A stretch of 64,000 nt of DNA from Salminus brasiliensis. Lineage: Eukaryota; Chordata; Actinopteri; Characiformes; Bryconidae. Positions 1,480 through 43,165 of this stretch are shown here, one piece after another. Within the stretch, counting starts at the first letter, position 1. Each line of letters starts with the position of its first letter. The notes below the pieces were generated by a model. It was given only the letters and a program-made list of their open reading frames with translations, was not told the origin of the DNA and did not search any database. The translations under genes and the position numbers were made by a program. The DNA is taken from NCBI RefSeq assembly GCF_030463535.1, contig NC_132892.1, positions 36,370,989 through 36,434,988 of the forward strand, written 5' to 3'.

Positions 1480-4400
1480 GTATGAAATTTTTTTTTTACT
1501 AAAATTGAATCGGAAATAAAATCTCCTGATATGGGAGTTTTGAGCCGAAAGTGTTTGTGTTCCAGAACCTGAGTGTGAGTGAAGTGCAGGATCTGATGGG
1601 GGTGAACATTGCAGATCTGAAGCTGTTTCAGGACTCTACAGTAGTTCAGGACTGGGAGTCTCAGCAGAAACAGTCTGAACTGAACACCCTGAATATCGGC
1701 CTGGTTCGGGGTATAAACGACATCACCAGCTCTACATCTGCTCCGATCACCAGCAGTTTCATTACCGACACTGACACCACCCTTACACCAAGTGACACCA
1801 CCACCACTCCTACTGACACCACCACCACTCCTACTGACTACACCACTCCTACTGAAAACACCACTCCTAGTGACACCACCACTCCTAATGACACCACCAC
1901 TGCAGTCGACACCACCACCACTGCTATTGAATCAGACACCACCACTATTGACACCACCACCACTGCTATTGAAACAGACACCACCACTATTGACACCACC
2001 ACCACTGCTATTGAAACAGACACCACCACTATTGACACCACCACCACTGCTACTGAAACAGACACCACCACTATTGACACCACCACCACTGCTATTGAAA
2101 CAGACACCACCACTATTGACACCACCACCACTGCTATTGAAACAGACACCACAACTATTGACACCACCACCACTGCTATTGAAACAGACACCACCACTAT
2201 TCACACCACCACCACCACCACTGCTATTGAAACAGACACCACCACTATTGAAACCACCACCACTGCTATTGAAACAGACACCACCACTACTGACACCACC
2301 ACTGCTATTGAAACAGACACCACCACAATTGACACCACCACCACCACTGCTATTGAAACAGACACCACCACTATTGACACCACCATCACTGCTATTGAAA
2401 CAGACACCACCACTATTGACACCACCACCACTGCTATTGAATCAGACACCACAACTATTGACACCACCACCACTGCAATTGAAACAGACACCACCACTAT
2501 TGACACCACCACCACTGCTATTGAAACAGACACCACCACTATTGACACCACCATCACTGATATTGAAACAGACACCACCACTATTGACACCACCACCACC
2601 ACTGCTATTGAATCAGACACCACCACTATTGACACCACCAGCACTGCTATTGAAACAGACACCACCACTATTGACACCACCACCACTGCTATTGAAACAG
2701 ACACCACCACTATTGACACCACCACTGCTATTGAAACAGACACCACCACTATTGACACCACCACCACCACTGCTATTGAAACAGACACCACCACTATTGA
2801 CACCACCACCACCACTGCTATTGAAACAGACACCACCACTGCTATTGAAACAGACACCACCACTATTGACACCACCACCACCACTGCTATGGAAACAGAC
2901 ACCACCACTATTGACACCACCACTGCTATTGAAACAGACACCACCACTATTGACACCATCACCACCACTGCTATTGAAACAGACACCACAACTATTGACA
3001 CCACCACCACTGCTATTGAAACAGACACCACCACTATTGAAACAGACACCACCACCACTGCTATTGAAACAGACACCACTACTATTGACACCACCACTGC
3101 TATTGAAACAGACACCACCACTATTGACACCATCACCACCACTGCTATTGAAACAGACACCACCACTATTGACACCACCACCACTGCTATTGAAACAGAC
3201 ACCACCACTATTGACACCACCACCACCACTGCTATTGAAACAGACACCACCACTATTGACACCACCACCACTGCTATTGAAACAGACACCACCACTATTG
3301 ACACCACCACCACTGCTATTGTAACAGACACCACAACTATTGACACCACCACCACTGCTATTGAAACAGACACCACCACTACTGACACCACCACCACTGC
3401 TATTGAAACAGACACCACCACTATTGACACCACCACCACTGCTATTGAAACAGACACCACCACTATTGACACCACCACCACCACTGCTATTGAATCAGAC
3501 ACCACCACTATTGACACCACCACCACTGCTATTGAAACAGACACCACCACTATTGACACCACCACCACTGCTGTTGAAACAGACACCACCACTATTGACA
3601 CCACCACCACCACTGCTATTGAAACAGACACCACAACTATTGACACCACCACCACCACTGCTATTGAAACAGACACCACCACTATTGACACCACCAGCAC
3701 TGCTATGGAAACAGACACCACCACTATTGACACCACCACTGCTATTGAAACAGACACCACCACTATTGACACCACCACCACTGCTATTGAAACAGACACC
3801 ACAACTATTGACACCGCCACCACTATTGAAACAGACACCACCACTACTGCTATTGAAACAGACACCACCACTATTGACACCACCACCACTGCTATTGAAA
3901 CAGACACCACTACTATTGACACCACCACTGCTATTGAAACAGACACCACCACTATTGACACCATCACCACCACAGCTATTGAAACAGACACCACCACTAT
4001 TGACACCACCACCACTGCTATTGAAACAGACACCACCACTATTGACACCATCACCACCACTGCTATTGAAACAGACACCACCACTATTGACACCACCACC
4101 ACTGCTATTGAAACAGACACCACCACTATTGACACCACCACCACTGCTATTGAAACAGACACCACCACTATTGACACCACCACCACCACTACTATTGAAA
4201 CAGACACCACCACTATTGACACCACCACCACTATTGAAACAGACACCACCACTATTGACACCACCACCACTATTGAAACAGACACCACCACTATTGACAC
4301 CACAACCACTGCTATTGAAACAGACACCACCACTATTGACACCACCACCACTGCTATTGAAACAGACACCACCACTATTGACACCACCACCACTGCTATT

Positions 4401-7400
4401 GAAACAGACACCACAACTATTGACACCACCACCACTGCTATTGAAACAGACACCACCACTATTGACACCACCACCACTGCTATTGAAACAGACACCACCA
4501 CTATTGACACCACCACCACTGCTATTGAAACAGACACCACCACTATTGACACCACAACCACTGCTATTGAAACAGACACCACCACTATTGACACCACCAC
4601 CACTGCTATTGAAACAGACACCACCACTATTGACACGACCACCACCACTGCTATTGAAACAGACACCACCACTATTGACACCACCACCACTGCTATTGAA
4701 ACAGACACCACCACTATTGACACCACCACCACTGCTATTGAAACAAACACCACCACTATTGACACCACCACCACTGCTATTGAAACAGACACCACCACTA
4801 TTGACACCACCACCACTGCTATTGAAACAGACACCACCACTATTGACACCACCACCACTGCTATTGAAACAGACACCACCACTATTGACACCACAACCAC
4901 TGCTATTGAAACAGACACCACCACTATTGACACCACCACCACTGCTATTAAAACAGACACCACCACTATTGACACCACCACCACCACTGCTATTGAAACA
5001 GACACCACCACTGCTATTAAAACAGACACCATCACTGTTGACACCACCACCATTGCTATTGAAACAGACACCACCACTGCTATTGAAACAGACACCACCA
5101 CTATTGACACCACCACCACTGCTATTGAAACAGACACCACCACTATTGACACCACCACTGCTATTGAAACAGACACCACCACTATTGACACCACCACCAC
5201 TTCTATTGAAACAGAAACCACCACTATTGACACCACCACCACTGCTATTGAAACAGACACCACCACTATTGACACCACCACCACCACTTCTATTGAAACA
5301 GACACCACCACTATTGACATGACCACCACCACTGCGATTGAAACAGACACCACCACTATTGACACGACCACCACCACTGCTATTGAAACAGACACCACAA
5401 CTATTCACACCACCACCACCACCACTGCTATTGAAACAGACACCACCACTATTGACACCACCACCACTGCTATTGAAACAGACACCACAACTATTCACAC
5501 CACCACCACCACCACTGCTATTGAAACAGACACCACCACTTTTGACACGACCACCACCACTGCTATTGAAACAGACACCACAACTATTCACACCACCACC
5601 ACTGCTATTGAAACAGACACCACCACTACTGACACCACCACTGCTATTGAAACAGACACCACCACTATTGACACCACCACCACTTCCATTGAAACAGAAA
5701 CCACCACTATTGACACCACCACCACTGCTATTGAAACAGACACCACCACTATTGACACCACCACCACCACCACTGCTACTGAAACAGACACCACCACTAT
5801 TGACACGACTACCACTGCTATTGAAACAGACACCACCACTATTGACACCACCACCACCACTGCTATTGAAACAGACACCACCACTATTGACACCACCACC
5901 ACCACTGCGATTGAAACAGACACCACCACTATTGACACCACCACCACCACTGCTATTGATACAGACACCACCACTATTGACACCACCACCACCACTGCTA
6001 TTGAAACAGACACCACCACTATTGACACCACCACCACCACTGCTATTGAAACAGACACCACAACTATTGACACCACCACCACCACTGCTATTGAAACAGA
6101 CACCACCACTATTGACACCACCACCACCACTGCTATTGAAACAGACACCACAACTATTGACACCACCACTACCACTGCTATTGAAACAGACACCACCACT
6201 ATTGACACCACCACCACCACTGCTATTGAAACAGACACCACCACTATTGACACCACCACCACCACTGCTATTGAAACAGACACCACCACTATTGACACCA
6301 CCACCACCACTGCTATTGAAACAGACACCACAACTATTGACACCACCACCACCACTGCTATTGAAACAGACACCACAACTATTGACACCACCACCACTGC
6401 TATTGAAACAGACACCACCACTATTGACACCACCACCACTGCTATTGAAACAGATACCACCACTATTGACACCACCACCACCACTGCTATTGAAACAGAC
6501 ACCACCACTATTGACACCACCACCACCACTGCTATTGAAACAGACACCACTACCATTTACACCACAACCACTGCTATTGAAACAGACACCACCACTACTG
6601 ACACCACCACTGCTATTGAAACAGACACCACCACTGCTATTGAAACAGACACCACCACTATTGACACCACCACCACCACTGCTATTGAAACAGACACCAC
6701 CACTATTGACACCACCACCACTTCTATTGAAACAGAAACCACCACTATTGACACCACCACAACTGCTATTGAAACAGACACCACCACTATTGACACCACC
6801 ACCACCACTTCTATTGAAACAGACACCACCACTATTGACACGACCACCACCACTGCTATTGAAACAGACACCACAACTATTGACACCACCACCACTGCTA
6901 TTGAAACAGACACCACAACTATTCACACCACCACCACCACCACTGCTATTGAAACAGACACCACCACTATTGACACGACCACCACCACTGCTATTGAAAA
7001 CGACACCACAACTATTCACACCACCACCACCACCACTGCTATTGAAACAGACACCACCACTATTGACACCACCACCACTGCTATTGAAACAGACACCACA
7101 ACTATTCACACCACCACCACCACCACTGCTATTGAAACAGACACCACCACTATTGAAACCACCACCACTGCTATTGAAACAGACACCACCACTACTGACA
7201 CCACCACTGCTATTGAAACAGACACCACCACTGCTATTGAAACAGACACCACCACTATTGACACCACCACCACTTCTATTGAAACAGAAACCACCACTAT
7301 TGACACCACCACCACTGCTATTGAAACAGACACCACCACTATTGACACCACCACCACCACTGCTACTGAAAAAGACACCACCACTATTGACACGACTACC

Positions 7401-10400
7401 ACTGCTATTGAAACAGACACCACCACTATTGACACCACCACCACCACTGCTATTGAAACAGACACCACCACTATTGACACGACTACCACTGCTATTGAAA
7501 CAGACACCACCACTATTGACACCACCACCACCACTGCTATTGAAACAGACACCACAACTATTGACACCACCACCACCACCACTGCTATTGAAACAGACAC
7601 CACCACTATTGACACCACCACCACCACTGCTATTGAAACAGACACCACCACTATTGACACGACCACCACTGCTATTGAAACAGACACCACCACTATTGAC
7701 ACCACCACCACTGCTATTGAAACAGACACCACCACTATTGACACCACAACCACTGCTATTGAAACAGACACCACCACTATTGACACCACCACCACTGCTA
7801 TTGAAACAGACACCACCACTATTGACACCACCACCACTGCTATTGAAACAGACACCACCACGATTGACACCACCACCACTGCTATTGAAACAGACACCAC
7901 CACGATTGACACCACCACCACTTCTATTGAAACAGAAACCACCACTATTGACACCACCACCACTGCTATTGAAACAGACACCACCACTATTGACACCACC
8001 ACCACCACTTCTATTGAAACAGACACCACCACTATTGACACGACCACCACCACTGCGATTGAAACAGACACCACAACTATTGACACCACCACCACTGCTA
8101 TTGAAACAGACACCACAACTATTCACACCACCACCACCACCACTGCTATTGAAACAGACACCACCACTATTGACACGACCACCACCACTGCTATTGAAAC
8201 AGACACCACAACTATTCACACCACCACCACCACCACTGCTATTGAAACAGACACCACCACTATTGACACCACCACCACTGCTATTGAAACAGACACCACA
8301 ACTTTTCACACCACCACCACCACCACTGCTATTGAAACAGACACCACCACTTTTGACACGACCACCACCACTGCTATTGAAACAGACACCACAACTATTC
8401 ACACCACCACCACTGCTATTGAAACAGACACCACCACTACTGACACCACCACTGCTATTGAAACAGACACCACCACTATTGACACCACCACCACTTCCAT
8501 TGAAACAGAAACCACCACTATTGACACCACCACCACTGCTATTGAAACAGACACCACCACTATTGACACCACCACCACCACTGCTATTGAAACAGACACC
8601 ACCACTATTGACACCACCACCACTGCTATTGAAACAGACACCACCACTATTGACACCACCACCACCACTGCTATTGTAACAGACACCACAACTATTGACA
8701 CCACCACCACCACTGCTATTGAAACAGACACCACCACTATTGACACGACCACCACCACTGCTATTGAAACAGACACCACAACTATTCACACCACCACCAC
8801 CACCACTGCTATTGAAACAGACACCACCACTACTGACACCACCACTGCTATTGAAACAGACACCACAACTATTGACACAACAACCACTGCTATTGAAACA
8901 GACACCACCACTATTGACACCACCACCACCACTGCTATTGAAAGAGACACCACCACTATTGACACGACCACCGCCACTGCTATTGAAACAGACACCACCA
9001 CTATTGACACGACCACCACCACTGCTATTGAAACAGACACCACAACTATTGACACAACAACCACTGCTATTGAAACAGACACCACCACTATTGACACCAC
9101 CACCACCACTGCTATTGAAAGAGACACCACCACTATTGACACGACCACCGCCACTGCTATTGAAACAGACACCACCACTATTGACACGACCACCACCACT
9201 GCTATTGAAACAGACACCACAACTATTCACACCACCACCACCACCACTGCTATTGAAACAGACACCACCACTTTTGACACGACCACCACCACTGCTATTG
9301 AAACAGACACCACCACTACTGACACCACCACTGCTATTGAAACAGACACCACCACTATTGACACCACCACCACTTCCATTGAAACAGAAACCACCACTAT
9401 TGACACCACCACCACTGCTATTGAAACAGACACCACCACTATTGACACCACCACCACCACTGCTATTGAAACAGACACCACCACTATTGACACCACCACC
9501 ACTGCTATTGAAACAGACACCACCACTATTGACACCACCACCACCACTGCTATTGTAACAGACACCACAACTATTGACACCACCACCACCACTGCTATTG
9601 AAACAGACACCACCACTATTGACACGACCACCACCACTGCTATTGAAACAGACACCACCACTACTGACACCACCACTGCTATTGAAACAGACACCACAAC
9701 TATTGACACAACAACCACTGCTATTGAAACAGACACCACCACTATTGACACCACCACCACCACTGCTATTGAAACAGACACCACCACTATTGACACGACC
9801 ACCACCACTGCTATTGAAACAGACACCACAACTATTGACACAACAACCACTGCTATTGAAACAGACACCACCACTATTGACACCACCACCACTGCTATTG
9901 AAACAGACACCACCACTATTGACACCACCACCACTGCTATTGAAACAGACACCACCACTATTGACACGACCACCACCACTGCTATTGAAACAGACACCAC
10001 CACTATTGACACCACCACCACTGCTATTGAAACAGACACCACCACTATTGACACCACCACCACTGCTATTGAAACAGACACCACCACTATTGACACCACC
10101 ACCACTGCTATTGAAACAGACACCACCACTATTGACACTACCACCACCACTGCTATTGAAACAGACACCACCACTATTGACACCACCACCACTTCTATTG
10201 AAACAGAAACCACCACTATTGACACCACCACCACTGCTATTGAAACAGACGCCACCACTATTGACACCACCACCACCACTTCTATTGAAACAGACACCAC
10301 CACTATTGACACGACCACCACCACTGCGATTGAAACAGACACCACAACTATTGACACCACCACCACTGCTATTGAAACAGACACCACAACTATTCACACC

Positions 10401-13400
10401 ACCACCACCACCACTGCTATTGAAACAGACACCACCACTATTGACACGACCACCACCACTGCTATTGAAACAGACACCACAACTATTCACACCACCACCA
10501 CCACCACTGCTATTGAAACAGACACCACCACTATTGACACCACCACCACTGCTATTGAAACAGACACCACAACTATTCACACCACCACCACCACCACTGC
10601 TATTGAAACAGACACCACCACTTTTGACACGACCACCACCACTGCTATTGAAACAGACACCACCACTATTGACACCACCACCACTGCTATTGAAACAGAC
10701 ACCACAACTATTCACACCACCACCACTGCTATTGAAACAGACACCACCACTATTGACACCACCAGCACTGCTATTGAAACAGACACCACCACTACTGACA
10801 ACACCACTGCTATTGAAACAGACACCACCACTATTGACACCACCACCACTTCCATTGAAACAGAAACCACCACTATTGACACCACCACCACCACCACTGC
10901 TACTGAAACAGACACCACCACTATTGACACGACTACCACTGCTATTGAAACAGACACCACCACTATTGACACCACCACCACCACTGCTATTGAAACAGAC
11001 ACCACCACTATTGACACCACCACCACCACTGCGATTGAAACAGACACCACCACTATTGACACCACCACCACCACTGCTATTGAAACAGACACCACAACTA
11101 TTGACACCACCACCACCACTGCTATTGAAACAGACACCACCACTATTGACACCACCACCACCACTGCTATTGAAACAGACACCACCACTATTGACACCAC
11201 CACTACCACTGCTATTGAAACAGACACCACCACTATTGACACCACCACCACCACTGCTATTGAAACGGACACCACCACTATTGACACCACCACCACCACT
11301 GCTATTGAAACAGACACCACCACTATTGACACCACCACCACCACTGCTATTGAAACAGACACCACAACTATTGACACCACCAACACCACTGCTATTGAAA
11401 CAGACACCACAACTATTCACACCACCACCACCACCACTGCTATTGAAACAGACACCACCACTATTGACACGACCACCACCATTGCTATTGAAACAGACAC
11501 CACAACTATTCACACCACCACCACCACCACTGCTATTGAAACAGACACCACCACTATTGACACCACCACCACTGCTATTGAAACAGACACCACAACTATT
11601 CACACCACCACCACCACCACTGCTATTGAAACAGACACCACCACTACTGACACCACCACTGCTATTGAAACAGACACCACCACTGCTATTGAAAGAGACA
11701 CCACCACTATTGACACCACCACCACTTCTATTGAAACAGAAACCACCACTATTGACACCACCACCACTGCTATTGAAACAGACACCACCACTATTGACAC
11801 CACCACCACTGCTATTGAAACAGACACCACCACTATTGACACCACCACCACTGCTATTGAAACAGACACCACCACTATTGACACCACAACCACTGCTATT
11901 GAAACAGACACCACCACTACTGACACCACCACTGCTATTGAATCAGACACCACCACTGCTATTGAAACAGACACCACCACTATTGACACCACCACCACCA
12001 CTGCTATTGAAACAGACACCACCACTTTTGACACCACCACCACTTCTATTGAAACAGAAACCACCACTATTGACACCACCACAACTGCTATTGAAACAGA
12101 CACCACCACTATTGACACCACCACCACCACTTCTATTGAAACAGACACCACCACTATTGACACGACCACCATCACTGCTATTGAAACAGACACCACAACT
12201 ATTGACACCACCACCACTGCTATTGAAACAGACACCACAACTATTCACACCACCACCACCACCACTGCTATTGAAACAGACACCACCACTATTGACACGA
12301 CCACCACCATTGCTATTGAAACAGACACCACAACTATTCACACCACCACCACCACCACTGCTATTGAAACAGACACCACCACTATTGACACCACCACCAC
12401 TGCTATTGAAACAGACACCACAACTATTCACACCACCACCACCACCACTGCTATTGAAACAGACACCACCACTACTGACACCACCACTGCTATTGAAACA
12501 GACACCACCACTGCTATTGAAAGAGACACCACCACTATTGACACCACCACCACTTCTATTGAAACAGAAACCACCACTATTGACACCACCACCACTGCTA
12601 TTGAAACAGACACCACCACTATTGACACCACCACCACCACTGCTACTGAAACAGACACCACCACTATTGACACGACTACCACTGCTATTGAAACAGACAC
12701 CACCACTATTGACACCACCACCACCACTGCTATTGAAACAGACACCACCACTATTGACACGACTACCACTGCTATTGAAACAGACACCACCACTATTGAC
12801 ACCACCACCACCACTGCTATTGAAACAGACACCACCACTATTGACACCACCACCACCACTGCTATTGAAACAGACACCACCACTATTGACACCACCACCA
12901 CCACTGCTATTGAAACAGACACCACAACTATTGACACCACCACCACCACTGCTATTGAAACAGACACCACAACTATTGACACCACCACCACCACCACTGC
13001 TATTGAAACAGACACCACCACTTTTGACACCACCACCACCACTGCTATTGAAACAGACACCACCACTATTGACACGACCACCACTGCTATTGAAACAGAC
13101 ACCACCACTATTGACACCACCACCACTGCTATTGAAACAGACACCACCACTATTGACACCACAACCACTGCTATTGAAACAGACACCACCACTATTGACA
13201 CCACCACCACTGCTATTGAAACAGACACCACCACTATTGACACCACCACCACCACTGCTATTGAAACAGACACCACCACTATTGACACCACCACCACCAC
13301 TGCTATTGAAACAGACACCACAACTATTGACACCACCAACACCACTGCTATTGAAACAGACACCACAACTATTCACACCACCACCACCACCACTGCTATT

Positions 13401-16400
13401 GAAACAGACACCACCACTATTGACACGACCACCACCATTGCTATTGAAACAGACACCACAACTATTCACACCACCACCACCACCACTGCTATTGAAACAG
13501 ACACCACCACTATTGACACCACCACCACTGCTATTGAAACAGACACCACAACTATTCACACCACCACCACCACCACTGCTATTGAAACAGACACCACCAC
13601 TACTGACACCACCACTGCTATTGAAACAGACACCACCACTGCTATTGAAAGAGACACCACCACTATTGACACCACCACCACTTCTATTGAAACAGAAACC
13701 ACCACTATTGACACCACCACCACTGCTATTGAAACAGACACCACCACTATTGACACCACCACCACTGCTATTGAAACAGACACCACCACTATTGACACCA
13801 CCACCACTGCTATTGAAACAGATACCACCACTATTGACACCACCACCACCACTGCTATTGAAACAGACACCACTACCATTGACACCACAACCACTGCTAT
13901 TGAAACAGACACCACCACTACTGACACCACCACTGCTATTGAATCAGACACCACCACTGCTATTGAAACAGACACCACCACTATTGACACCACCACCACC
14001 ACTGCTATTGAAACAGACACCACCACTTTTGACACCACCACCACTTCTATTGAAACAGAAACCACCACTATTGACACCACCACAACTGCTATTGAAACAG
14101 ACACCACCACTATTGACACCACCACCACCACTTCTATTGAAACAGACACCACCACTATTGACACGACCACCATCACTGCTATTGAAACAGACACCACAAC
14201 TATTGACACCACCACCACTGCTATTGAAACAGACACCACAACTATTCACACCACCACCACCACCACTGCTATTGAAACAGACACCACCACTATTGACACG
14301 ACCACCACCATTGCTATTGAAACAGACACCACAACTATTCACACCACCACCACCACCACTGCTATTGAAACAGACACCACCACTATTGACACCACCACCA
14401 CTGCTATTGAAACAGACACCACAACTATTCACACCACCACCACCACCACTGCTATTGAAACAGACACCACCACTACTGACACCACCACCGCTATTGAAAC
14501 AGACACCACCACTGCTATTGAAAGAGACACCACCACTATTGACACCACCACCACTTCTATTGAAACAGAAACCACCACTATTGACACCACCACCACTGCT
14601 ATTGAAACAGACACCACCACTATTGACACCACCACCACCACTGCTACTGAAACAGACACCACCACTATTGACACGACTACCACTGCTATTGAAACAGACA
14701 CCACCACTATTGACACCACCACCACCACTGCTATTGAAACAGACACCACCACTATTGACACGACTACCACTGCTATTGAAACAGACACCACCACTATTGA
14801 CACCACCACCACCACTGCTATTGAAACAGACACCACCACTATTGACACCACCACCACCACTGCTATTGAAACAGACACCACCACTATTGACACCACCACC
14901 ACCACTGCTATTGAAACAGACACCACAACTATTGACACCACCACCACCACTGCTATTGAAACAGACACCACAACTATTGACACCACCACCACCACCACTG
15001 CTATTGAAACAGACACCACCACTTTTGACACCACCACCACCACTGCTATTGAAACAGACACCACCACTATTGACACGACCACCACTGCTATTGAAACAGA
15101 CACCACCACTATTGACACCACCACCACTGCTATTGAAACAGACACCACCACTATTGACACCACAACCACTGCTATTGAAACAGACACCACCACTATTGAC
15201 ACCACCACCACTGCTATTGAAACAGACACCACCACTATTGACACCACCACCACTGCTATTGAAACAGACACCACCACTATTGACACCACAACCACTGCTA
15301 TTGAAACAGACACCACCACTATTGACACCACCACCACTGCTATTGAAACAGACACCACCACTATTGACACCACCACCACTTCTATTGAAACAGAAACCAC
15401 CACTATTGACACCACCACCACTGCTATTGAAACAGACACCACCACTATTGACACCACCACCACCACTTCTATTGAAACAGACACCACCACTATTGACACG
15501 ACCACCACCACTGCGATTGAAACAGACACCACAACTATTGACACCACCACCACTGCTATTGAAACAGACACCACAGCTATTCACACCACCACCACCACCA
15601 CTGCTATTGAAACAGACACCACCACTATTGACACCACCACCACTGCTATTGAAACAGACACCACAACTTTTCACACCACCACCACCACCACTGCTATTGA
15701 AACAGACACCACCACTATTGACACCACAACCACTGCTATTGAAACAGACACCACCACTATTGACACCACCACCACTGCTTTTGAAACAGACACCACCACT
15801 ATTGACACCACCACCACTTCTATTGAAACAGAAACCACCACTATTGACACCACCACCACTGCTATTGAAACAGACACCACCACTATTGACACCACCACCA
15901 CCACTTCTATTGAAACAGACACCACCACTATTGACACGACCACCACCACTGCGATTGAAACAGACACCACAACTATTGACACCACCACCACTGCTATTGA
16001 AACAGACACCACAACTATTCACACCACCACCACCACCACTGCTATTGAAACAGACACCACCACTATTGACACGACCACCACCACTGCTATTGAAACAGAC
16101 TCCACAACTTTTCACACCACCACCACTGCTATTGAAACAGACACCACCACTTTTGACACGACCACCACCACTGCTATTGAAACAGACACCACAACTATTC
16201 ACACCACCATCACCACCACTGCTATTGAAACAGACACCACCACTATTGACACCACCACCACTGCTATTGAAACAGACACCACCACTATTGACACCACCAC
16301 CACCACTGCTATTGAAACAGACACCACCACTACTGACACCACCACTGCTATTGAAACAGACACCACCACTGCTATTGAAACAGACATCACCACTATTGAC

Positions 16401-19400
16401 ACCACCACCACCACTGCTATTGAAACAGACACCACCACTATTGACACCACCACCACTTCTATTGAAACAGAAACCACCACTATTGACACCACCACAACTG
16501 CTATTGAAACAGACACCACCACTATTGACACCACCACCACCACTTCTATTGAAACAGACACCACCACTATTGAGACGACCACCACCACTGCTATTGAAAC
16601 AGACACCACAACTATTGACACCACCACCACTGCTATTGAAACAGACACCACAACTATTCACACCACCACCACCACCACTGCTATTGAAACAGACACCACC
16701 ACTATTGACACCACCACCACTGCTATTGAAACAGACACCACAACTATTCACACCACCACCACCACCACTGCTATTGAAACAGACACCACCACTACTGACA
16801 CCACCACTGCTATTGAAACAGACACCACCACTATTGACACCACCACCACTTCTATTGAAACAGAAACCACCACTATTGACACCACCACCACTGCTATTGA
16901 AACAGACACCACCACTATTGACACCACCACCAACACTGCTACTGAAACAGAAACCACCACTATTGACACCACTACCACTGCTATTGAAACAGACACCACC
17001 ACTATTGACACCACCACCACCACTGCTATTGAAACAGACACCACCACTATTGACACGACTACCACTGCTATTGAAACAGACACCACCACTATTGACACCA
17101 CCACCACCACTGCTATTGAAACAGACACCACCACTATTGACACCACCACCACCACTGCTATTGAAACAGACACCACCACTTTTGACACCACCACCACCAC
17201 TGCGATTGAAACAGACACCACAACTATTGACACCACCACCACCACTGCTATTGAAACAGACACCACAACTATTGACACCACCACCACCACCACTGCTATT
17301 GAAAAAGACACCACCACTATTGAAACCACCAGCACTGCTACTGAAACAGACACCACAACTATTGACACCACCACCACTGCTATTGAAACAGACACCACAA
17401 CTATTGACACCACCACCACTGCTATTGAAACACACACCACCACTATTGACACCACCACCACTGCTCTTGAAACAGACACCACCACTATTGAAACCACCAC
17501 CACTGCTATTGAAACAGACACCACCACTATTGACACCACCAGCACTGCTATTGAAACAGACACCACCACTATTGACACCACCACCACTGCTATTGAAACA
17601 GACACCACCACTATTGACACCACCACCACCACTTCTATTGAAACAGACACCACAACTATTCACACCACCACCACCACCACTGCTATTGAAACAGACACCA
17701 CCACTATTGACACCACCACCACTGCTATTGAAACAGACACCACAGCTATTGACACCACCACCACTGCTATTGAAACAGACACCACCACTATTGACACCAC
17801 CACCACCACTGCTATTGAAACAGACACCACAACTATTGACACCACCACCACTGCTATTGAAACAGACACCACCACTATTGACACCACCACCACCACTGCT
17901 ATTGAAACAGACACCACCACTATTGACACCACCACCACCACCACTGCTATTGAAACAGACACCACCAATATTGACACCACCACCACTGCTATTGAAACAG
18001 ACACCACCACTATTGACACCACCACCACCACTGCTATTGAAACAGACACCACAACTATTGACACCACCACCACTGCTATTGAAACAGACACCACCAATAT
18101 TGACACCACCACCACTGCTATTGAAACAGACACCACCACTATTGACACCACCACCACTGCTATTGAAACAGACACCACCACTATTGAAACCACCAGCACT
18201 GCTATTGAAACAGACACCACAACTATTGACACCACCACCACTGCTATTGAAACAGACACCACCACTATTGACACCACCACCACTGCTATTGAAACAGACA
18301 TCACCACTATTGACACCACCACCACTGCTATTGAAACAGACACCACCACTATTGAAACCACCACCACTGCTATTGAAACAGACACCACCACTATTGACAC
18401 CACCACCACTGCTATTGAAACAGACACCACCACTATTGACACCACCACCACCACTTCTATTGAAACAGACACCACAACTATTCACACCACCACCACCACC
18501 ACTGCTATTGAAACAGACACCACCACTATTGACACCACCACCACTGCTATTGAAACAGACACCACCACTATTGACACCACCACCACTGCTATTGAAACAG
18601 ACACCACCACTATTGAAACCACCACTACTGCTATTGAAACAGACACCACCACTATTGACCCCACCACCACTGCTATTGAAACAGACACCACCACTATTGA
18701 CACCACCACCACTGCTATTGAAACAGACACCACCACTATTGACACCACCACCACTGCTATTGAAACAGACACCACAACTATTGACACCACCACCACTGCT
18801 ATTGAAACAGACACCACCACTATTGACACCACCACCACCACTGCTATTGAAACAGACACCACAACTATTGACACCACCACTACTGCTATTGAAACAGACA
18901 CCACCACTATTGACACTACCACCACTGCTATTGAAACAGATACCACCACTATGGACACCACCATCACTGCTATTGAAACAGACAACACCACTATTGACAC
19001 GACCACCACCACTGCTATTGAAACAGACACCACCACTATTGACACCACCACCACTGCTATTGAAACAGACACCACCAATATTGACACCACCACCACCACT
19101 GCTACTGAAACAGACACCACCACTATTAAAACCACCAGCACTGCTATTGAAACAGACACCACAACTATTGACACCACCACCACTGCTATTGAAACAGACA
19201 CCACCACTATTGACACCACCACCACTGCTATTGAAACAGACACCACCACTATTGACACCACCACCACTGCTATTGAAACAGACACCACCACTATTGACAC
19301 TACCACCACTGCTATTGAAACAGACACCACCACTATTGACACCACCACCACTGCTATTGAAACAGACACCACCACAATTGACACCACCACCACTGCTATT

Positions 19401-22400
19401 GAAACAGACACCACCACTATTGACACTACCACCACTGCTATTGAAACAGACACCACCACTATTGACACCACCACCACTGCTATTGAAACAGACACCACCA
19501 CTATTGACACGGCCACCACCACTGCTATTGAAACAGACACCACCACTATTGACACGACCACCACCACTGCTATTGAAACAGACACCACCACTATTGACAC
19601 CACCACCACCACTGCTATTGAAACAGACACCACCACTATTAAAACCACCACCACTGCTATTGAAACAGACACCACCACTATTGACACCACCACCACTGCT
19701 ATTGAAACAGACACCACCACTATTGAAACCATCACCACTGCTATTGAAACAGACACCACCACTATTGACACCACCACCACTGCTATTGAAACAGACACCA
19801 CCACTATTGACACCACCACCACCACTGCTATTGAAACAGACACCACAACTATTCACACCACCACTGCTATTGAAACAGACACCACCACTATTGACACCAC
19901 CACCACTGCTATTGAAACAGACACCACCATTATTGACACCACCACCACTGCTATTGAAACAGACACCACAACTATTCACACCACCACCACCACCACTGCT
20001 ATTGAAACAGACACCACCATTATTGACACCACCACCACCACTGCTATTGAAACAGACACCACAACTATTCACACCACCACCACCACCACTGCTATTGAAA
20101 CAGACACCACCACTACTGACACCACCACTGCTATTGAAACAGACACCACCACTATTGAAACAGACACCACCACTGCTATTGAAACAGACACCACCACTAT
20201 TGACACCACAACCACTGCTATTGAAACAGACACCACCACTATTGACACCACCACCACCACTGCTATTGAAACAGACACCACCACTATTGACACCACAACC
20301 ACTGCTATTGAAACAGACACCACCACTATTGACACCACCACCACTGCTATTGAAACAGACACCACAACTATTGACACCACCACCACTGCTATTGAAACAG
20401 ACACCACGACTATTGACACCACCACCACTGCTATTGAAACAGACACCACCACTATTGACACCACCACCACCACTGCTATTGAAACAGACACCACGACTAT
20501 TGACACCACCACCACTGCTATTGAAACAGACACCACCACTATTGACACCACCACCACTGCTATTGAAACAGACACCACCACTATTGAAACGACCACCACT
20601 GCTATTGAAACAGACACCACGACTATTGACACCACCACCACTGCTATTGAAACAGACACCACCACTATTGACACCACAACCACTGCTATTGAAACAGACA
20701 CCACCACTATTGAAACGACCACCACTGCTATTAAAACAGACACCACCACTATTGACACCATCACCACCACTGCTATTGAAACAGACACCACCACTATTGA
20801 CACCACAACCACTGCTATTGAAACAGACACCACCACTATTGACACCACCACCACTGCTATTGAAACAGACACCACCACTGCTATTGAAACAGACACCACC
20901 ACTATTGACACCACCACCACCACTGCTATTGAAACAGACACCACCACTATTGACACCACAACCACTGCTATTGAAACAGACACCACCACTATTGACACCA
21001 TCACCACTGCTATTGAAACAGACACCACCACTATTGACACCATCACCACTGCTATTGAAACAGACACCACCACTATTGACACAACCACCACTGCTATTGA
21101 AACAGACACCACAACTATTGACACCACCACCACTGCTATTGAAACAGACACCACGACTATTGACACCTCAACCACTGCTATTGAAACAGACACCACCACT
21201 ATTGACACCACCACCACTGCTATTGAAACAGACACCACCACTATTGACACCACAACCACTGCTATTGAAACAGACACCACCACTATTGACACCACCACCA
21301 CTGCTATTGAAACTGACACCACCACCACTGCTATTGAAACAGACACCACAACTATTGACACAACAACCACTGCTATTGAAACAGACACCACCACTATTGA
21401 CACCACCACCACTGCTATTGAAACAGACACCACAACTATTGACACAACAACCACTGCTATTGAAACAGACACCACAACTATTGACACAACAACCACTGCT
21501 ATTGAAACAGACACCACTACTACTGAGACCACCACCACTGCTATTATATCCACTACCACTGCTTTTGAACCCACACCTTCTTCTACTGATGACACCACCA
21601 CCATTGACACAACCACCACTGCTGTTGTCACCACCTCTATATATTCCCCTACCACTGCTCCACATATTTCTTGTAAAGGTGTGGACAGGTGAGGTTTGTT
21701 TTTTTAAATTCAAATTAATATTTTATCAAAGACATTTGAGATGTTTAATGTTACATTTTTTCCCCAACAGTCATCCACTTGAGACTCAGCTCCTGTCTGG
21801 AGATACCTCAGCAGTGCTCTGTAACTTCCCTATCTCTGATTATGCCTGTTCATCAGTAAGTCTTTCATTAGCCAGATGTAAAATATCTCAAATGTAGGGA
21901 TTTTTCTACTTCATCAACTTTTTCTACTTGTTTTTCTTTCTTTCAAGGCTGCAGTCCTGTCTTCCAGAGATCTCACCACTCTTCTATCATGTAAATTATC
22001 AAGCAACATCAGTGAATCCAAAGCAACTTGGACCCTTTTCTTCCAAAGATTTTCAGCACCTCTGGAGGAAGCTCTGGATGCATACTTCAACATGGTAGAT
22101 AACTCTGAGTAACAGATTAATACCAGCTCAACATTTGATTGATACTGAACATTGAAACACCCACTTTCTCTCACAGACCCTCAACTTCAGTGTGCCTGAC
22201 CCTCATGTTCTTGATGCCATTGGTGAGGTGAAGGTCAACAACTTTAGCGCTGCTCAGCTTACAGATGTTGCATTCATCACCAAGTGGTTCCAGATCAGGC
22301 TCAGACCATTTTTGTCATCAGTGTCTTCAGACTTCCTCTCCAGTCTCAGTTCCAAGAGCTTCAGCTGCCAGTCCTACCAGGCTGTGTAAGTATGGAGACT

Positions 22401-25400
22401 GAAATGTATGAAATGATGCTTATGAGGAAAAGCAAAAAATAAATCACCACTTCTGATCTCGTCCCTTCAAAATTAGGGTGGAGGCTTTTAGTTCACAAGA
22501 CCCTCTTATGGAAGAGAAGAAACTGTCCATCGTCTCAGATTTCATCCTTCCTTTCCTCTCCAGAGCTGACCTGTCAGGTATGTAAAGCAGTGTTACTCTA
22601 ACTGAGCAGTCCTACCTTTAGAAGAATGTGTGTTAGCTTGTTAAATAAGTCACACTGACTTAATGCAGAGATTCGGTTCCTGGCTGTCCTGTTATTGTTT
22701 ATCCTGGGTGTGTTTTTGTTTGTGTGTATGAGTTAGTGGTCTGTGTAACACACCCTGTGGTTTTAGGTCAGTCCTGTGTGCAGTCAGTGAGCAATGACTC
22801 TGACTGGCTGGTGAAGAATTTTGGCCGATTCAGAAGTGTGGCCTCATTCTCTGATTTCATCAGGCTGAAGAGAGACTTCAATGGAGTGAGTTCCCCAACA
22901 CTTACCTCAGCACCTTCTGATGACTGTTCTGTTGAGACACAGTAGATTAGAAAAGCATGACTGTCTTGTGTTCAGGGGTTGGTTTAATAGTAACTCTCTC
23001 TCAGGTGAATGCAGCAGAAGTTCTAACTCCAGCCCAGTTGGCAGAACTGTGCTCCGAACCCTCTCGACTCCGAGGTCCTCAGGATGTTAACACTGTGATG
23101 GCAGCAATTAATCCAAACCAGTTTGCCTCCTTCTTCAACATCCTCACTCCCAACATCCTGGTACTTACCCCTTCTCTGCTTCATTGCTGTCATAGATTTT
23201 CTGATATAATGAACAGCAGATGCTCATTCAAAACTCATCCATTTCTTACAGTTAATGAATTCAGTCTGTCTTTTTCTGTTAAATGTAGATGTTTTATTAT
23301 TCTCTCTAATGAGTGGATGATTGGAGCACACTGGTGGGGTGTAAGGGCTCAGCTGGTGGGCCATGCAGGACTCTTCAAGACTGTGATATTAGTCAAAAGC
23401 CTGGGTGAAAATAGAGTCACATAGAAGCAAACATGAAGGTTCCCAGAGAAATCAATGCCCCTCCGCCCTACCATCAACAAACCTGAGTGAACAAGTTCAT
23501 AAGCAATCTGGGATTTGATAGAAACAAACAAACATGAATAAAAAACTGAAATGGAGAATAAAGTCTGTAAATCTGCCTTTAAACAGGAAACTGAGATCCT
23601 ATATATGCAGTGCATGTTATTTTAAACTCTTGTTACCTCTAAATCTCTCTGTGTTAAGAAAAACGAGTCCCTGTACTCCACTGAGGTGAAGGGAGCGTTC
23701 CTCCAGGCCGTTCTGCTGAGAGGGGGTCTGTCCTCTGCAGCAGTGTCTGATTCAGAGGTTCTACAGTGGGTGGATGTTCGGCTCGGACCCTTCCTCTCCA
23801 GCCTCTCCTCTGCAGATGTAACACCGTACTTCAACATTATCAGAAACCGGATCTGCAACACCAGCCAGACAGCGTAAGAGACACTTCTAGTGTTGCTGAG
23901 TGTTTAATGTAGGATCATATAAAGAGGGGAAGAGAGGGGGAGGTGTGGAGTCTTGTGTGTTGGGCTTTGTGTAGCACGGCTGTGATGAACTATTTCCTGT
24001 GCTGTAACAGGGTCAGCAAGTTGGACTCTCTGAGATCAGCTTTCAGCAACGACATACAGGTTCAGATCTACAGCAACATCCAGCAGCTCCTCACAGGTAT
24101 AACACACACTCCCTCATGCTCACTAATAAATAAATAAATAAATAAATAAAAAGAAACATTGTTTTGTTTGGTTGATTTGTTTATTTGCTGTTTTTGCTCT
24201 ACAGAACTGAATGGTCTGCGTTGCTACAGCGGCGGGAGCTTCTTTGTCTTCCTCAGGACCTCCTTCCTCAGTTTTGGATTTCCTGACCTGAGCGGCCTTC
24301 TGTCCATCATCCCAGCCAGCCGACAGCAAGAGGTACTGCTGCTTTAAACCTGAGAGGAAAAAGCAAGTTTCAGAGTCAGCCAGTCACACAGTCACTGAGC
24401 CAGTCATTAATCCAGCCTACAGTCCTTCAGTAGCACTGTTCCTAACCAGCCCATGAGTAAACCAGTCAGTCCAATAGTGAGCGTTTATCCACACACCCCT
24501 CTCTCTATAGTGAGTGTGTTGATCTCCTCTCTGTTCTGTAGCTGTTGGGCTCCATCTCTCCAGGAGAACTGAGGGAGTTTCTGAAAGGGTCCAACACAGT
24601 CAGGAACGGGTCAGATCTCTGCACGCTCCTCAACAACTACAACAGCACCAACCAGTATCTGCAGACGGTACACCTGTGCTCATCTCACCTTTCTCCCTCT
24701 ACCTTCACTCTCAGTCTTTTCTATCCATTCAGTCCTGCTGTTTCTCCCTCAGTTTGACCCTTTTAGATGGATTTAATGCAGTAATCCATGTTTAAAGCTC
24801 TCTTTTCTGTCTCTCTCCATTCCTCTCTGGACCTCTGCTTCCTCCCTCTGGATCTCTGTGCAGGAGCCGGTTGTGTCTGCAGCTGTGGGCAGGCAGACGT
24901 TGGGGTGTGTGTGGTCTGGTGCTCTCAGTGTGTCGTCTCAGGATGAGGTGGATCAGTGGTTTAATGTCAGACTGGTTCAGTACCTGCCCTTCCTCAGCTC
25001 TCAGCTCATCAGCTCCACTCAGCTCAGCGGCGCCTCCTGCCTGTCATTCAGGAAAATGTGAGTCTCTGTTTGGAGTAGTGATAAACTGTTGTATCATGGT
25101 TAATAATGATCTTTCTGTTGTAAAATAATGATTGTTATTATTTTTATGATCAGGGTTTCAGTCCTGGGGAAGAACTATAATTTCTCAGCCACTGATTTCA
25201 CCCCAGCTGATGTCTACAGCTCTATAAAGACATATCTGAACAGCAGTGGTAAGCACAGCTATGTTGATCTCGTTCTGTCTCTCCCTCTGTATGTTCATCT
25301 GTGCTCTGGAGACTCTACACATTTAGTAAGTGTATACATGTGTGTGTTTCTGTGGTTTATGTGTGTGTATGTGTGAACCTTGTAGATGGATCTCCTCGCT

Positions 25401-25567
25401 GCTATAACTCCTCCGATCCCCTTCTGAACTCCACTGCCTGGTTCGCCGACAACATTGGAGTCTTCATCACCTTCATCACCCTCACTGACCTCCAGTCCTT
25501 TGTATCAGAGAGCAAGGTAACACTCACCCAAACACACTTATACAAACACACACTTATACACACACAA

Positions 25568-25599
<32 letters not shown>

Positions 25600-28500
25600 C
25601 TGATCTCCCAGTTTACTGAGGTTTGATTGTGTTGTGTAGATCGGTGTGTTCCTGGAAAACTCTCAGAATATCCAGCTGTTTAACAACACAGGAATTCCAG
25701 CCAACGTCATCAAATACTACAGCTCACAGCTCTACATCCAGAAACCTGACTACAACCCCCTCAGGTAACACACTACACACTACACACTAAATACTACAGC
25801 TCACAGCTCTACATCCAGAAACCTGACTACAACCCTCTCAGGTAACACACTACACACTAAACACTAAATACTACAGCACACAGCTCTACATCCAGAATCC
25901 TGACTACAACCCCCTCAGGTAACACACTACACACTACACACTAAATACTACAGCTCACAGCTCTACATCCAGAATCCTGATTACAACCCCCTCAGGTAAC
26001 ACACTACACACTACACACTAAATACTACAGCTCACAGCTCTACATCCAGAATCCTGACTACAACCCCCTCAGGTAACACACTACACACTAAATACTACAG
26101 CTCACAGCTCTACATCCAGAATCCTGACTACAACCCCCTCAGGTAACACACTACACACTACACACTAAATACTACAGCTCACAGCTCTACATCCAGAATC
26201 CTGACTACAACCCCCTCAGATAACACACTACACACTAAATACTACAGCTCACAGTTATACATCCAGAATCCTGACTACAACCCCCTCAGGTAACACACTA
26301 CACACTACACACTAAATAATACAGCTCATAGCTCTACATCCAGAATCCTGACTACAACCCCCTCAGATAACACACTACACACTAAATACTACAGCTCACA
26401 GCTCTACATCCAGAATCCTGATTACAACCCCCTCAGGTAACACACTACACACTACACACTAAATACTACAGCTCTACATCCAGAATCCTGACTACAACCC
26501 CCTCAGGTAACACACTACACACTACACACTAAATACTACAGCTCACAGCTCTACATCCAGAATCCTGACTACAACCCCCTCAGGTAACACACTACACACT
26601 ACACACTAAATACTACAGAACTACATCCAGAATCCTGACTACAACCCCCTCAGATAACACACTAGATAAATGGTCTATTAGTATATATGTATATGTGTCT
26701 GTTTGTGTTTATATATTTATCCATTTAATTGCTTGTTTGTGTGTGTAGGTTGCCAGGTGTGCTCCTGTGTGGAGTTCCTGGATCTGTGTTTGTGTCTCTT
26801 GGAACTGCAGACATACACAACATTATAGCAAGCCTCAACAAATTCTGTCCACAAATTAATCCAGAGGTAATTAATAGCTTGGTCAGATCTTCTACCATTT
26901 CAGTGAGCTCTTCTCCAGTTACCTATAATCCTTCTCTTCTTTCAGGTCACAGCATCTCTGGTGGCAAGCTTTCCTACCTTATCCACAACCATCATCCAGA
27001 CACTTGGAAAACAGAGTATTGGACTGACTGAAGGTCAGATAACCACTGCTATCCCTACTGTTATCAACAGCACCCTGCCCACACTCAGCACCGTCACAGG
27101 CTGGAACCAGGGTCAGACCAATGCCCTCATCCAGAGCGTCACTAGTGCAGGCTTCAATGTGAGTGTACACAGCACACAAAACTGTAACAATTACTTTCAA
27201 GTTTTATCTGAGTGCATTGCTTCAGAGGACATTAATCTGAAATGATATACTTATTGACAGATCAACAGTGCCTCTTCTCTGGTGACTCTGGGCACACTCA
27301 TCGGAGGAGTTCCTTCAGCAACCATCAACAAGATCTCATCCTCTGAGCTTCTGACTGTATCCCAGAATCCAACATTCATCAACAACATTCTGACGGCACC
27401 AGTGATTGTACAAGAAACATTCGTCCAGCAGGTAATCACACACACACACACTCTGCAGAATTTCGTCCATTTAAAGTACTGAGAAATTCAGACACTCCAG
27501 TATAATGTAGACGTTTGCAAAACCTCAACTTAGTCAATCCTCTTCTCCTGTGTTCCAGATCATCTCTATAGATCAGGCCAAAGTGGTGGAGAATGTTCCA
27601 GATGCACTGGCAGCGTATATCCCACCTGTGCTCCTGTCATCTCTCACCTCCATCAATATTTCACTCATCAATGTGAAGATGTGGAAACAAGAACAGGTAA
27701 GAGAACACACACTCACACACAAAGTGCTTCTACAATCAATCAAGCACTCGGCATTGCGATCACTAAACCAACACTGGGTAGTGTTAACTCTCAAAACCAC
27801 CTCAACTCTTCATGACTTCTGCAGGATTCCAAGCAAACATTTCTCTGATGTTCTGGTCCATGCTGACATAACTACACAATTCCTGATTTTTCAGAAGTAC
27901 TTTCTATCTGCAAATCTTCTAGCAAATCCAAAAGGTTATTTGGCGAAGGCTTTGGCTTTGTGACATCATAGTGCTTAATCAGGCTGGATGGTAAATTGTG
28001 GCCTTGAAGGGATGCTCCTGGTCAGCAGCAATTCTCACATAGGCTGTGGAATTCAAGTGACGATTAGTTGCTATAAATGGTCCAGATGTGTTATGTTTTG
28101 CATCTCTGCAAAACTGCAAAGTTGTGCAGAGTGAGTATCTGAGTTACTGTAGCCTTTCTCTCAGCTCCAACTAGGCTGACCATTATATGTTGACCTCTGT
28201 CTTCAACAAGATGTTTCCATCTGCAGAAAAAACTGCTCACTGGATGCATTTACTTCATTACACCACTTTGAAGCACTGAGATCATATTTTACATGTATCT
28301 GATGGTTGATATGAACATTTCTTGAGGCTGCAGATCGATATCTGCATGGTTTTATACATTCCACTGCTGCCACACAATTAGAAGGTTCGAAAATTTGCAT
28401 GAAAATAGGGTTTCAATTCCTCCTAATAATGTGCTCAGTGAGTGTATAATAAAAATCCATGACATATTTTAATATTTTTTTTTAACTCCACTCCTAGGCT

Positions 28501-31500
28501 GTGGTGTTGTTTGGTCCAGTGGTTAGTGCCAGTAACAATATGGAAGAGTAAGTAAAAGACACACACTCTTACACAGCTTATGATAGCTTATAATAGAAGG
28601 GTAACACTTTACATGGATGGTCTATTGGATATGCTCACATTCAACAAACATTCAACTTGTTGTCTCTTAAATGCAACTGAACTCTAAGCTAAATGTAAAT
28701 GAACTTAATTTTAACTCTTAGGTGCCAGGCTACTTCAATCATAACCTTTTGATGGTGTGGTGAAAATATGCTTTTTTCATACATTACCCACTTAAGCCAG
28801 GGCAGGATGTCCAGCAAATGATCTGTCACATTACATCACATTATCCATATGTATGCCTAGGTCAATGGTGAAAACATTAAAGGTGCTTCGTCATTAAATT
28901 TGTGTTTGTCTCCCCCTGTAGGCTGTCAGAGTCAATACTGCAGGGATTTACCTGTACATCAGCTCGGTCTCTACCTCTGCAGAAAATTAAACAACTGGTA
29001 ACAGCCTGTAGACCACGTGCAGGCAGAAACAAGGTCACCCTGAAAGAGTCTCAGGTACACAGTGATCCTCAGTTACTCAGTGATCAATCAGTTTGGATGC
29101 TCCCAAAATAAATGGACCTATTTATATTTCTCTGGTACCAATTTTTATACGCTGGTCAAGATGGGCTCTATTCATGTACTGTCCTCTTCAGCTAGGGCAA
29201 AAAAGTAAGTTAGTCTGTCGATTAATCTACTGTCCTGTCATAGATGCAATGTGAGTGTCCACATGAAGGCATGGACTGTTGTGATTAAGCCCTGCTATAG
29301 TGCAGCAGCTTGTCTGCCATCTTATGTGGGCTCTGCTAACTGGATCAATGGACAAACCCACCACCATCTCACATTCCAGGGGCTATAATAGATGGCTCTG
29401 GAGGCAACATCTGACTCTAAAGTTGTTAAGTTGTTCGTGCTTTAGCATCAATTTAGCATCACTACTTTAGCAATAAAGTTGTCATGTCTTGACTCGACTT
29501 GTCTTGAAAAGTGATGTAATTCACACCATGTTTTCTGTTGTAGCTGATCTGCATGTACAACTTTGTGAAAGAGGACTTAACTCTGAGCTTCACTGATTTA
29601 CCTTCAGACATGCTGCTCTACTACAGGTGTGTATTAAGCATATTGGAACCACCCTCCACTGACCCAACCCTTGTAATCCTCCCTATCTAGTCACAAATAT
29701 AAGGGCATGAAGGACTATATCCAAGATGTATGTGCCTTTCCCTTCCCTGCAGATGCATAGTTATTTCTTGTAGAGAAGAATGATGTATGCCTCCACCCTT
29801 ATATTGGTTACTGGGGATTAAGTAAGATCACAGTCAAGAACCACTAGCCATCACTTGCCCCTCATGACTTCAGCTTTCAAGGCACTGCAGAAGGCATCCA
29901 TTTTTATCAAGCCGGAAATGTACAGTGATTACAACATTGTCAGGTTTAGGGAAGGTGGACAACATCTTCATCATCACTCAGCCAGGCAATTATGAGTACC
30001 TTGTAATGCTCTTTGGACTGATTAATGGTCCAGCTGCCTTCCAACAGTACCTCAGTAATGAAGTCATGAGGGAGGCCCTTGACTGCTGTGTGTTGACACA
30101 TTCAGTGAGTTCTCCGGTTGTGTCTGAAGAATACTTTATTCACAAAGCTTTAGACATGTCTGTTCTATGTTCTGTCATTCACCTTCCTGTATGGATCTGG
30201 CTAGGGTTAGGGTTAGATCCAGACCATAGTATAGCCCATGCTGTACGCTGCTCTGGACCACTACTATTGACCAAAAGCACATGACAGACTGCAGACATAG
30301 GCCAGCACATTCCCTGCTTATTCATGCATGTTTATGTGTGTTGTAGCTATAACAAGGTGCCACAGGAGAAGTGCAGGCAATATTTTAAGGCTCTGGGTGC
30401 AGCAGATTTCTCTATTCCTTCCAGCGTCCTCAACCGACAGGCCGTCTTGTTCAAGAGTGCAAAGGATTGTCTGGTAAAGCACACATCTACACACTCATAG
30501 GCACACACATGATGTGATTATCTTACATAATGTTTTGGAAAGACATGCTGTGTAACATTAATATTCAAAGTATCCTGTGTGTCACACCTCCAAAATGGCA
30601 ACTTTACAGGAAAAAAATGACAAAATGTAATAAACAACTGCCAGATGTACTGTAGTCAAAATGGGAAAAAGTCTTAAATGGAGATACACTGTTTTTTAAA
30701 GACAGGGATAAGAATAACATATGTTGCATTACAGCTACACTAACACAACTGTAGACATGCGAACACCAGCAAGTACCTGCTGGCAACACATAATAATCTT
30801 CTTTACAACAACATTTTTCCTGCTTCTAAACTCTATGTATCATGAATGATTCTGGAGCCCACTGCTTACATTAAGAAATTCATTACTTTCATATTTTCTT
30901 CTAAAAAAACATATGAAACAGGTGTCATATAAAAGCCCAAACTCTCTTCTTTTATTATCTACTTGCCTTATATATCTTATCTGACATTTGACAAAATGCC
31001 TCTTAAATGTAACTACACTATAAGTTGAATGTAAATGATTGTCCGTTGAATATAACCCTATACCAAACCTACCATATACCAATATATACCAAATTTCAGT
31101 TTTTAATTACATTACATTAGATTAGATTAGAGTTTGGGTTAAGGGTTAATTCTGTGGTAATTTTAGGGTTAGAGTTAGGCTTAGGGTGCAGGTTTAAATT
31201 CAATAGACCATCATTCACATTCAGCTTTGGGCTCAGTTCCATTTAACATATTCAGTTGAAGGTCAGACTAATGCCAGGTGAGCATCCACAAGGCATTTAT
31301 AATAGATAATTGCCTATTTTGAGCCAGCAACTATATCTTCTGTTCCATTAAAGCATTATGAATATTCATAATTTTACTAATACATGGTCTGTGTTTCTGT
31401 AGGGTATATCTGGTTGGAGTCTGACTAAGGATCAGGTGGAGGTTCTGGGTAATATGGTCTGCACACTGGACCCCCCCTACATCCAGAACTCTGACCCACT

Positions 31501-34681: not shown

Positions 34682-34713
<32 letters not shown>

Positions 34714-42004: not shown

Positions 42005-43165
<1,161 letters not shown>

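Follow-up and report, generated by a model that had tools for sequence, protein, structure and literature searches.

Human mesothelin (MSLN) is built of a single module and is not known to carry a mucin stalk. According to the accessible part of PMC2628672, it is a tumour antigen with a mesothelin domain, a glycosylphosphatidylinositol (GPI) anchor and a furin cleavage before the domain, and it binds a separate giant mucin, MUC16, as its known partner. Here we analyse a 64,000-nucleotide stretch of the genome of the characiform fish Salminus brasiliensis (contig NC_132892.1, positions 36,370,989 to 36,434,988 of the forward strand; hereafter the window, numbered from its first letter), in which, unlike the human pair, mesothelin and a mucin-like stalk appear to form one protein; the mesothelin domain is shared with MSLN, and the anchor and the cleavage are putative. 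The gene in question is probably a giant member of the fish mesothelin (mesothelin a) family. Its linker behind one mesothelin domain would have grown to about 6,500 residues, forming a mucin-like stalk, and a complete second module follows. This reading is carried by the homology of both modules, an open 38-exon gene model, the keeping of the frame through the array, the same domain order with other linker motifs in further characiforms, and a GPI-type tail.

The stalk is encoded by exon 6 (1566..21688, + strand; 20,123 base pairs, bp), which comprises the end of the upstream mesothelin domain (domain A), an array dominated by threonine (Thr) and a short tail. A first-pass annotation of this DNA had proposed a single giant coding exon open for more than 6,700 codons with correct splice phases at both ends, and this holds: within an open frame of 6,720 codons (1530-21689), the exon has 6,707 whole codons and no stop, its acceptor (tccag) and donor (gtgaggtt) have phases 0 and 2, and both neighbouring exons fit. 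The annotation also described correctly a nearly proline-free, acidic Thr array, with the repeat as given there. Thr accounts for 3,832 residues of the exon (57.1%), followed by Ile (13.3%), Asp (12.6%), Glu (7.3%) and Ala (6.5%); Asp and Glu together make up 19.9%, with a charge of -1,318 (D/E against K/R), while serine (Ser, 0.94%), proline (Pro, 12 residues, 0.18%), Lys (10 residues) and Cys (a single one) are rare. The exon 6 head (1566..1760, +; 65 codons) contains the last part of domain A and the start of the linker and is homologous to the head of exon 37. It is followed by a degenerate 5′ edge (1761..1910, +) of Pro-containing, DTTTTPT-like copies, with Pro at exon residues 75, 82, 89, 95, 101 and 107, and by the core array (1911..21509, +; 6,533 residues), made of about 459 units of 14 residues (42 bp) with Thr runs of mostly 3-6. 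A degenerate 3′ edge with an SCKGVD junction (21510..21688, +), matched in the predicted Astyanax protein P0087, closes the exon. The core contains one Pro only, the remaining 11 lying in the edges (residues 75-107 and 6669-6699). Tandem Repeats Finder reports a single array of 452 copies of 42 bp with 85% matches, and a codon-level alignment to a cyclic 14-codon unit yields 459 units of 121 types. Nine N-glycosylation sequons are present in the 6,707 residues of the exon.

Taken by itself, the open frame says less than it appears to, because some of the other frames of the core are also low in stops (4, 7, 42, 856 and 908 in the five of them, the 4-stop frame being forward) and few unit codons are one step from a stop, with 514 of 58,797 single changes in the core creating one. 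A test of stop expectation was uninformative, since 3.5 stops were expected from raw deviations and 0.7 from tree steps, and 0 were seen. Better coding evidence comes from the in-frame spacings, the in-phase flanking exons and the homology on both sides. All 410 of the 410 spacings between copies of GAAACAGAC are divisible by 3. In five other arrays of the window this is true of 24 of 74 unit spacings, and two of these arrays (periods 30 and 33) also show mostly multiples of 3; however, the 410 spacings do not amount to 410 independent tests, because ACC slippage favours multiples of 3 and many units have been copied. Within the array there is next to no ordinary splice donor, because the 19,599-base core contains five GT dinucleotides and neither GTAAG nor GTGAG.

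The gene model (22-37641, +) joins 38 exons by splice site and frame into 8,400 codons, the sole stop being the last codon; the window starts inside the gene, which begins to its left. Exons 1-5 (22-203, 307-462, 671-804, 964-1097 and 1385-1479, +), open and in phase, encode domain A. Downstream of the array, exons 7-31 (21771..33405, +), likewise open and in phase and aligned to giant relatives, encode the N-terminal part of module B (approximately residues 1-1121 of 1,458), exons 32-37 (34343..37289, +) encode mesothelin domain B and a short Thr/Ser linker, as a paralogue of exons 1-6, and the last exon, 38 (37556..37641, +), encodes a putative GPI-type C-terminal signal and the stop. The Pfam Mesothelin profile (PF06060) matches module B with an expect value (E) of 1.8e-77 and exons 1-5 plus the exon 6 head with E 1.1e-48 (261.5 and 166.4 bits, against a cut-off of 25.8), and among solved structures the downstream module matches, by sequence, human mesothelin (PDB 7ued, E 2.9e-42). 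Domains A and B (exons 1-6 head versus exons 32-37 head) are 64.4% identical over 298 codons, and their non-synonymous and synonymous divergences (dN 0.22, dS 0.47, NG86) are consistent with constraint on both. In copy B, a short Thr/Ser stretch closes exon 37 and the GPI-type exon comes next, while the matching stretch of copy A is the giant array, and for this reason the array looks like an expanded Ser/Thr linker behind a mesothelin domain. The C-terminal tail is hydrophobic (11-residue hydropathy up to 2.58), and similar tails are found in nine of ten giant relatives.

As for the fold, the accessible part of PMC2628672 predicts a superhelix for the mesothelin family. A structure model of the relative P0046 (1,016 residues, built on a 29-row alignment) is nearly all helical, with a mean predicted local distance difference test (pLDDT) score of 73 and a poor first 300 residues, and agrees with that prediction. 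This model, which is of a relative and not of the window protein, matches mesothelin crystal chains with probability 1.00 over about 160 columns (E 1.4e-3), but three unrelated helical chains outrank mesothelin, with template modelling (TM) scores near 0.1 that mean little.

A search with the C-terminal part of module B, in which the 7,993 candidates sharing most words were scored, returned 85 proteins, the named ones all from fishes and many of them annotated with a single mesothelin domain. The first-pass annotation had also proposed to look for orthologues with the exon 6 head and to ask whether they carry the repeat. With this query three giant proteins were found, and giant relatives do have Thr/Ser-rich linkers, but not this repeat: an 11-residue string of the window motif and TTTIDT occur in 0 of 144 proteins, and TTTTAI in 1 of 144. 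A search among giant proteins (1,142 candidates sharing most words scored) gave 59, isoforms included, of which 34 were examined and 25 isoforms (22 of Dicentrarchus, 3 of Epinephelus) left out. At least two separate mesothelin domains are present in 13 of the 34, not counting P0144, which has one split match, and a Ser/Thr-rich linker separates the domains in nine of these 13; the other giants examined have one domain match, some with a Ser/Thr stretch behind it (614 residues in Gouania P0112). The first-pass annotation knew of no described protein with this layout, but it does have relatives, namely predicted giant mesothelin-like fish proteins with a Ser/Thr-rich inter-domain linker. The window protein is a member of the mesothelin family whose linker array has a Thr-dominated, Pro-poor and acidic motif of its own.

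Ten linkers, with limits set by hand, were measured: those of Astyanax P0086 and P0087, Pygocentrus P0088, Hoplias P0093, Prochilodus P0099, the catfish proteins P0091, P0092, P0095 and P0097, and killifish (Nothobranchius) P0098. In nine of them a second domain and a hydrophobic C-terminal tail follow the linker, the Prochilodus record being cut short. Their lengths range from 129 to 1,604 residues: 965 and 1,604 in Astyanax (Thr 42-45%, Pro 0.9-1.6%), 576 in Pygocentrus (Thr 29%, asparagine (Asn) 16%), 593 in Prochilodus, 519 in Hoplias, 1,340 in Nothobranchius and 129-899 in the catfishes (Pro 3.6-8.1%). Enrichment in Ser/Thr is weak in some, with 90 of 420 segments of Hoplias, 61 of 709 of Silurus and 177 of 1,241 of Nothobranchius above 40%. 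The Asn-rich linkers resemble one another (Pygocentrus-Prochilodus, E 8e-37; Pygocentrus-Hoplias, E 4e-22), as do the four catfish linkers; the Astyanax and Nothobranchius linkers matched no other linker at E 1e-3, in a comparison made among the relatives' linkers. In the Asn-rich linkers of P0088, P0093 and P0099, 58, 35 and 65 sequons are found, and their contrast with the window exon might possibly reflect a switch from N- to O-linked decoration. In characiforms an Asn-rich linker may represent the older state, with Thr-dominated repeats having taken its place in Astyanax and the window lineage. Astyanax P0087 is the closest among the three giant relatives that were compared, with 76.7% identity across 1,461 columns of module B. 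Some source names are misleading: P0087 is listed as 'serine-rich adhesin for platelets' and P0098 as 'mucin-3A-like', and both are giant fish mesothelin-like proteins.

In a domain tree of 47 rows (45 domain rows from 32 chosen proteins plus the two window domains), window domain A clusters with array-proximal domains of characiforms (8 rows with it, 99/97) and window domain B with domains from the GPI side (8 rows with it, 97/90). Each window domain thus pairs with its characiform counterpart, and the two-domain layout is therefore older than the divergence of these characiforms. In the catfishes, domains of both kinds cluster together (100/99), as do the two Nothobranchius domains (97/96), so that in catfishes and killifish the two-domain layout would either have arisen separately or have been homogenised.

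The PTS (Pro-Thr-Ser) rule for mucin domains, as given in the accessible part of PMC5728529, calls for more than 40% Ser/Thr and at least 5% Pro in 100-residue segments. Across exon 6, 6,596 of 6,608 segments exceed 40% Ser/Thr and 70 of 6,608 pass the Pro part of the rule; because that part fails, the array is termed mucin-like and not a PTS mucin. In the relatives, segments passing the rule number 0 of 866 and 21 of 1,505 in the two Astyanax linkers, 1 of 477 in Pygocentrus and 0 of 420 in Hoplias, versus 403 of 433, 23 of 30 and 800 of 800 in three catfish linkers and 1 of 709 in the fourth. The usual Pro-based rule overlooks such mucin-like domains. A mucin-like stalk, the role favoured in the first-pass annotation, is still the likeliest prediction. 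Its polyanionic character is not shared by the relatives: Asp plus Glu amounts to 10.7% in one Astyanax linker, 4.6% in the other and 0.7% in that of Pygocentrus. As to size, a 20-kb repeat exon falls within the range of mucins, for which the accessible part of PMC13345508, a preprint, gives a MUC4 allele of 27,843 bp and MUC12 proteins of up to 23,080 residues.

How much of the motif is owed to selection and how much to copying bears on a rival explanation, namely that the array is a neutral minisatellite inflation within a coding exon, tolerated because it is in frame and with spacing as its only function. We regard this as rather unlikely. Exact repeats of 120 bp or more cover 75.6% of the array, the longest exact match being 764 bp and near-identical blocks recurring at a 2,001-bp offset, and a spanning tree of the distinct units (90 of the 96 unit types, after removal of types with two or more gaps) has 21 synonymous and 55 non-synonymous steps, giving an omega of 0.98-1.14. 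Because omega is close to 1 and so much of the array lies in exact repeats, the exact motif, with its acidity and lack of Pro, would be mainly a product of recent amplification, and the composition of the array would mainly reflect the copying of one 42-bp unit. The absence of the 11-residue string and of TTTIDT from the 144 proteins, and of a linker from some multi-domain relatives, also speaks for this rival. On the other hand, neutral inflation fits poorly with the fact that ten giant relatives carry Ser/Thr-rich linkers, 129 to 1,604 residues long, at the corresponding position, with the sharing of linker motifs by Pygocentrus, Prochilodus and Hoplias and by the four catfish proteins, and with an array whose spacings all keep the frame through 6,707 stop-free codons. 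About half of human mucin arrays are likewise described as having a homogenised core between edges that are more degenerate (accessible part of PMC13345508).

Several candidate signals within the array were set aside. Raw counts of 183 synonymous and 212 non-synonymous deviations give an omega of 0.43-0.50, but copied changes are thereby counted many times, and codon-level purifying selection is not claimed for this reason. With equal mutation rates, about 29 Pro would be predicted among the 395 raw deviations and 5.5 among the 76 tree steps, and 1 and 0 were seen; exclusion of Pro is only suggestive, because the array has few A>C changes of any sort. The window unit and the unit of Astyanax P0087 agree at 10 of 14 positions in a cyclic match (p 0.0014 with full shuffles, 0.039 with Thr positions held), and common descent of the two is not claimed.

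Two further alternatives concern the gene model and the assembly. It is highly improbable that two adjacent genes are present, the upstream one ending in or after the array with exon 6 as its terminal exon: each module does resemble a complete mesothelin unit, and single-domain annotations are common among the relatives found, but the donor of exon 6 is normal, an in-phase intron of 82 bases leads to exon 7, Astyanax P0087 has matching residues at both junctions (exons 5/6 and 6/7), and no stop occurs before 37641. An assembly artefact, with a real array much shorter, is likewise improbable and would affect the length of the array, not its nature; long near-identical blocks such as those noted above invite mis-assembly, but 121 distinct unit types among 459, an unbroken frame and predicted linkers of up to 1,604 residues in relatives argue against it.

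Besides the unit-level omega, a number of points weigh against the reading as a giant mesothelin with an anchored, glycosylated stalk. The window does not reach the upstream exons, the signal peptide or the site before domain A. The relatives are predicted models, some perhaps chimeric, and four of the 13 multi-domain giants (P0089, P0090, P0094 and P0096) have no Ser/Thr-rich linker. Acidic neighbours and a lack of Pro make poor sites for the initiating GalNAc-transferases. In favour of the reading, a furin-like motif (RX[KR]R or RXXR) directly precedes the array-proximal domain in four of five giant characiform proteins (RFRR, RFTR, RYRR and RSKR; P0086 has only KR), while RX[KR]R precedes the GPI-side domain in none of five (P0086, P0087, P0088, P0093 and the window protein; P0086 has KRRR, and window domain B is preceded by GIRAR). 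This contrast is not general, as across the whole set RX[KR]R precedes 6 of the 21 distinct internal domains as well as 23 of the 98 distinct terminal ones, and within the characiforms Salminus P0060, with RNKR before a domain near the record end, is an exception.

On the reading that we prefer, a giant mesothelin with an expanded linker, a 42-bp unit would have been tandemly duplicated within the linker behind one mesothelin domain. The predicted protein would be secreted and GPI-anchored through module B, and dense O-glycosylation of the Thr runs would render the chain extended, negatively charged and hydrated; taking 0.2-0.25 nm per residue, the stalk would be some 1.3-1.7 micrometres long. 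A cut before domain A, at a furin-like site such as relatives carry, would free the upstream part and leave domain A at the free tip of the stalk, with module B holding it to the membrane. Domain A could then bind partners (glycans, mucins or matrix) away from the epithelium, the stalk acting as spacer and barrier. Across lineages, a long, Thr- or Ser-rich, non-folding linker is what we infer to have been kept, with motif, Pro and charge being replaceable. A bolder version, which we consider doubtful, holds that the Pro-free polyanionic Thr stalk is a separate mucin-domain type, missed by PTS screens, that replaced the older Asn-rich linker, and that its tip domain puts receptor and mucin ligand in one chain, able to form a homotypic glycan-mesothelin mesh over the epithelium.

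Other features of the window were noted in passing. At the end of exon 20 and in intron 20 (25712-26664), the last part of that exon and its donor recur in 77/70-bp units; 12 copies are listed, counting the real one, and three of them have the donor GT changed to AT. As the frame reads, use of a later donor would give an immediate stop. Two transposon remnants (31678-32924 and 42058-43137), which we take to be of Tc1 type, are 92% identical over 845 columns, mutually inverted and contain broken transposase pieces, and intron 27 has a short fragment (29850-30160) that is presumably reverse-transcriptase-like. The region 44100-64000 contains numerous simple repeats and minisatellites (CA, GAG-rich, 29-bp and 33-bp arrays). 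Scans of the whole window returned no Rfam family at gathering score and no transfer RNA.

Among the literature matches listed for mesothelin, mesothelin-like fish proteins and mucins, no description of this architecture was found, and the accessible part of PMC11083954 merely names a mesothelin-like protein in a table on shark semen. The place of the linker is kept and its motif is kept or replaced by lineage, and therefore these proteins would offer a natural series for what a stalk must keep or may change (Pro, Asn, charge). Of the described systems, FIM-C.1, a frog integumentary mucin, has Thr-rich mucin-type stretches, the repeats of MUC16, MUC4 and MUC12 carry Ser and Pro, with other anchoring and no known mesothelin domain, and we know of no giant Thr array in stereocilin or otoancorin. 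FIM-C.1 differs from the window protein in being a skin mucin with trefoil domains (accessible part of PMC7177656). Stereocilin and otoancorin are mesothelin homologues, GPI-anchored and suggested to contact acellular gels (accessible part of PMC2628672). MUC16, MUC4 and MUC12 have a large repeat exon in common with the gene described here, and several mucins share the homogenised core with degenerate edges (accessible part of PMC13345508). The predicted proteins of Astyanax mexicanus (P0086, 5,460 residues; P0087, 5,251 residues) and Pygocentrus nattereri (P0088, 4,105 residues) have the same order of mesothelin domain, linker, mesothelin domain and GPI-type tail, with a linker that starts at the domain end and is Pro-poor (0.9-2.3%), but their linkers are of 576-1,604 residues, less acidic, and built on other motifs (ETTTTAA; TTTTASHTATTGID; Asn-rich with sequons).

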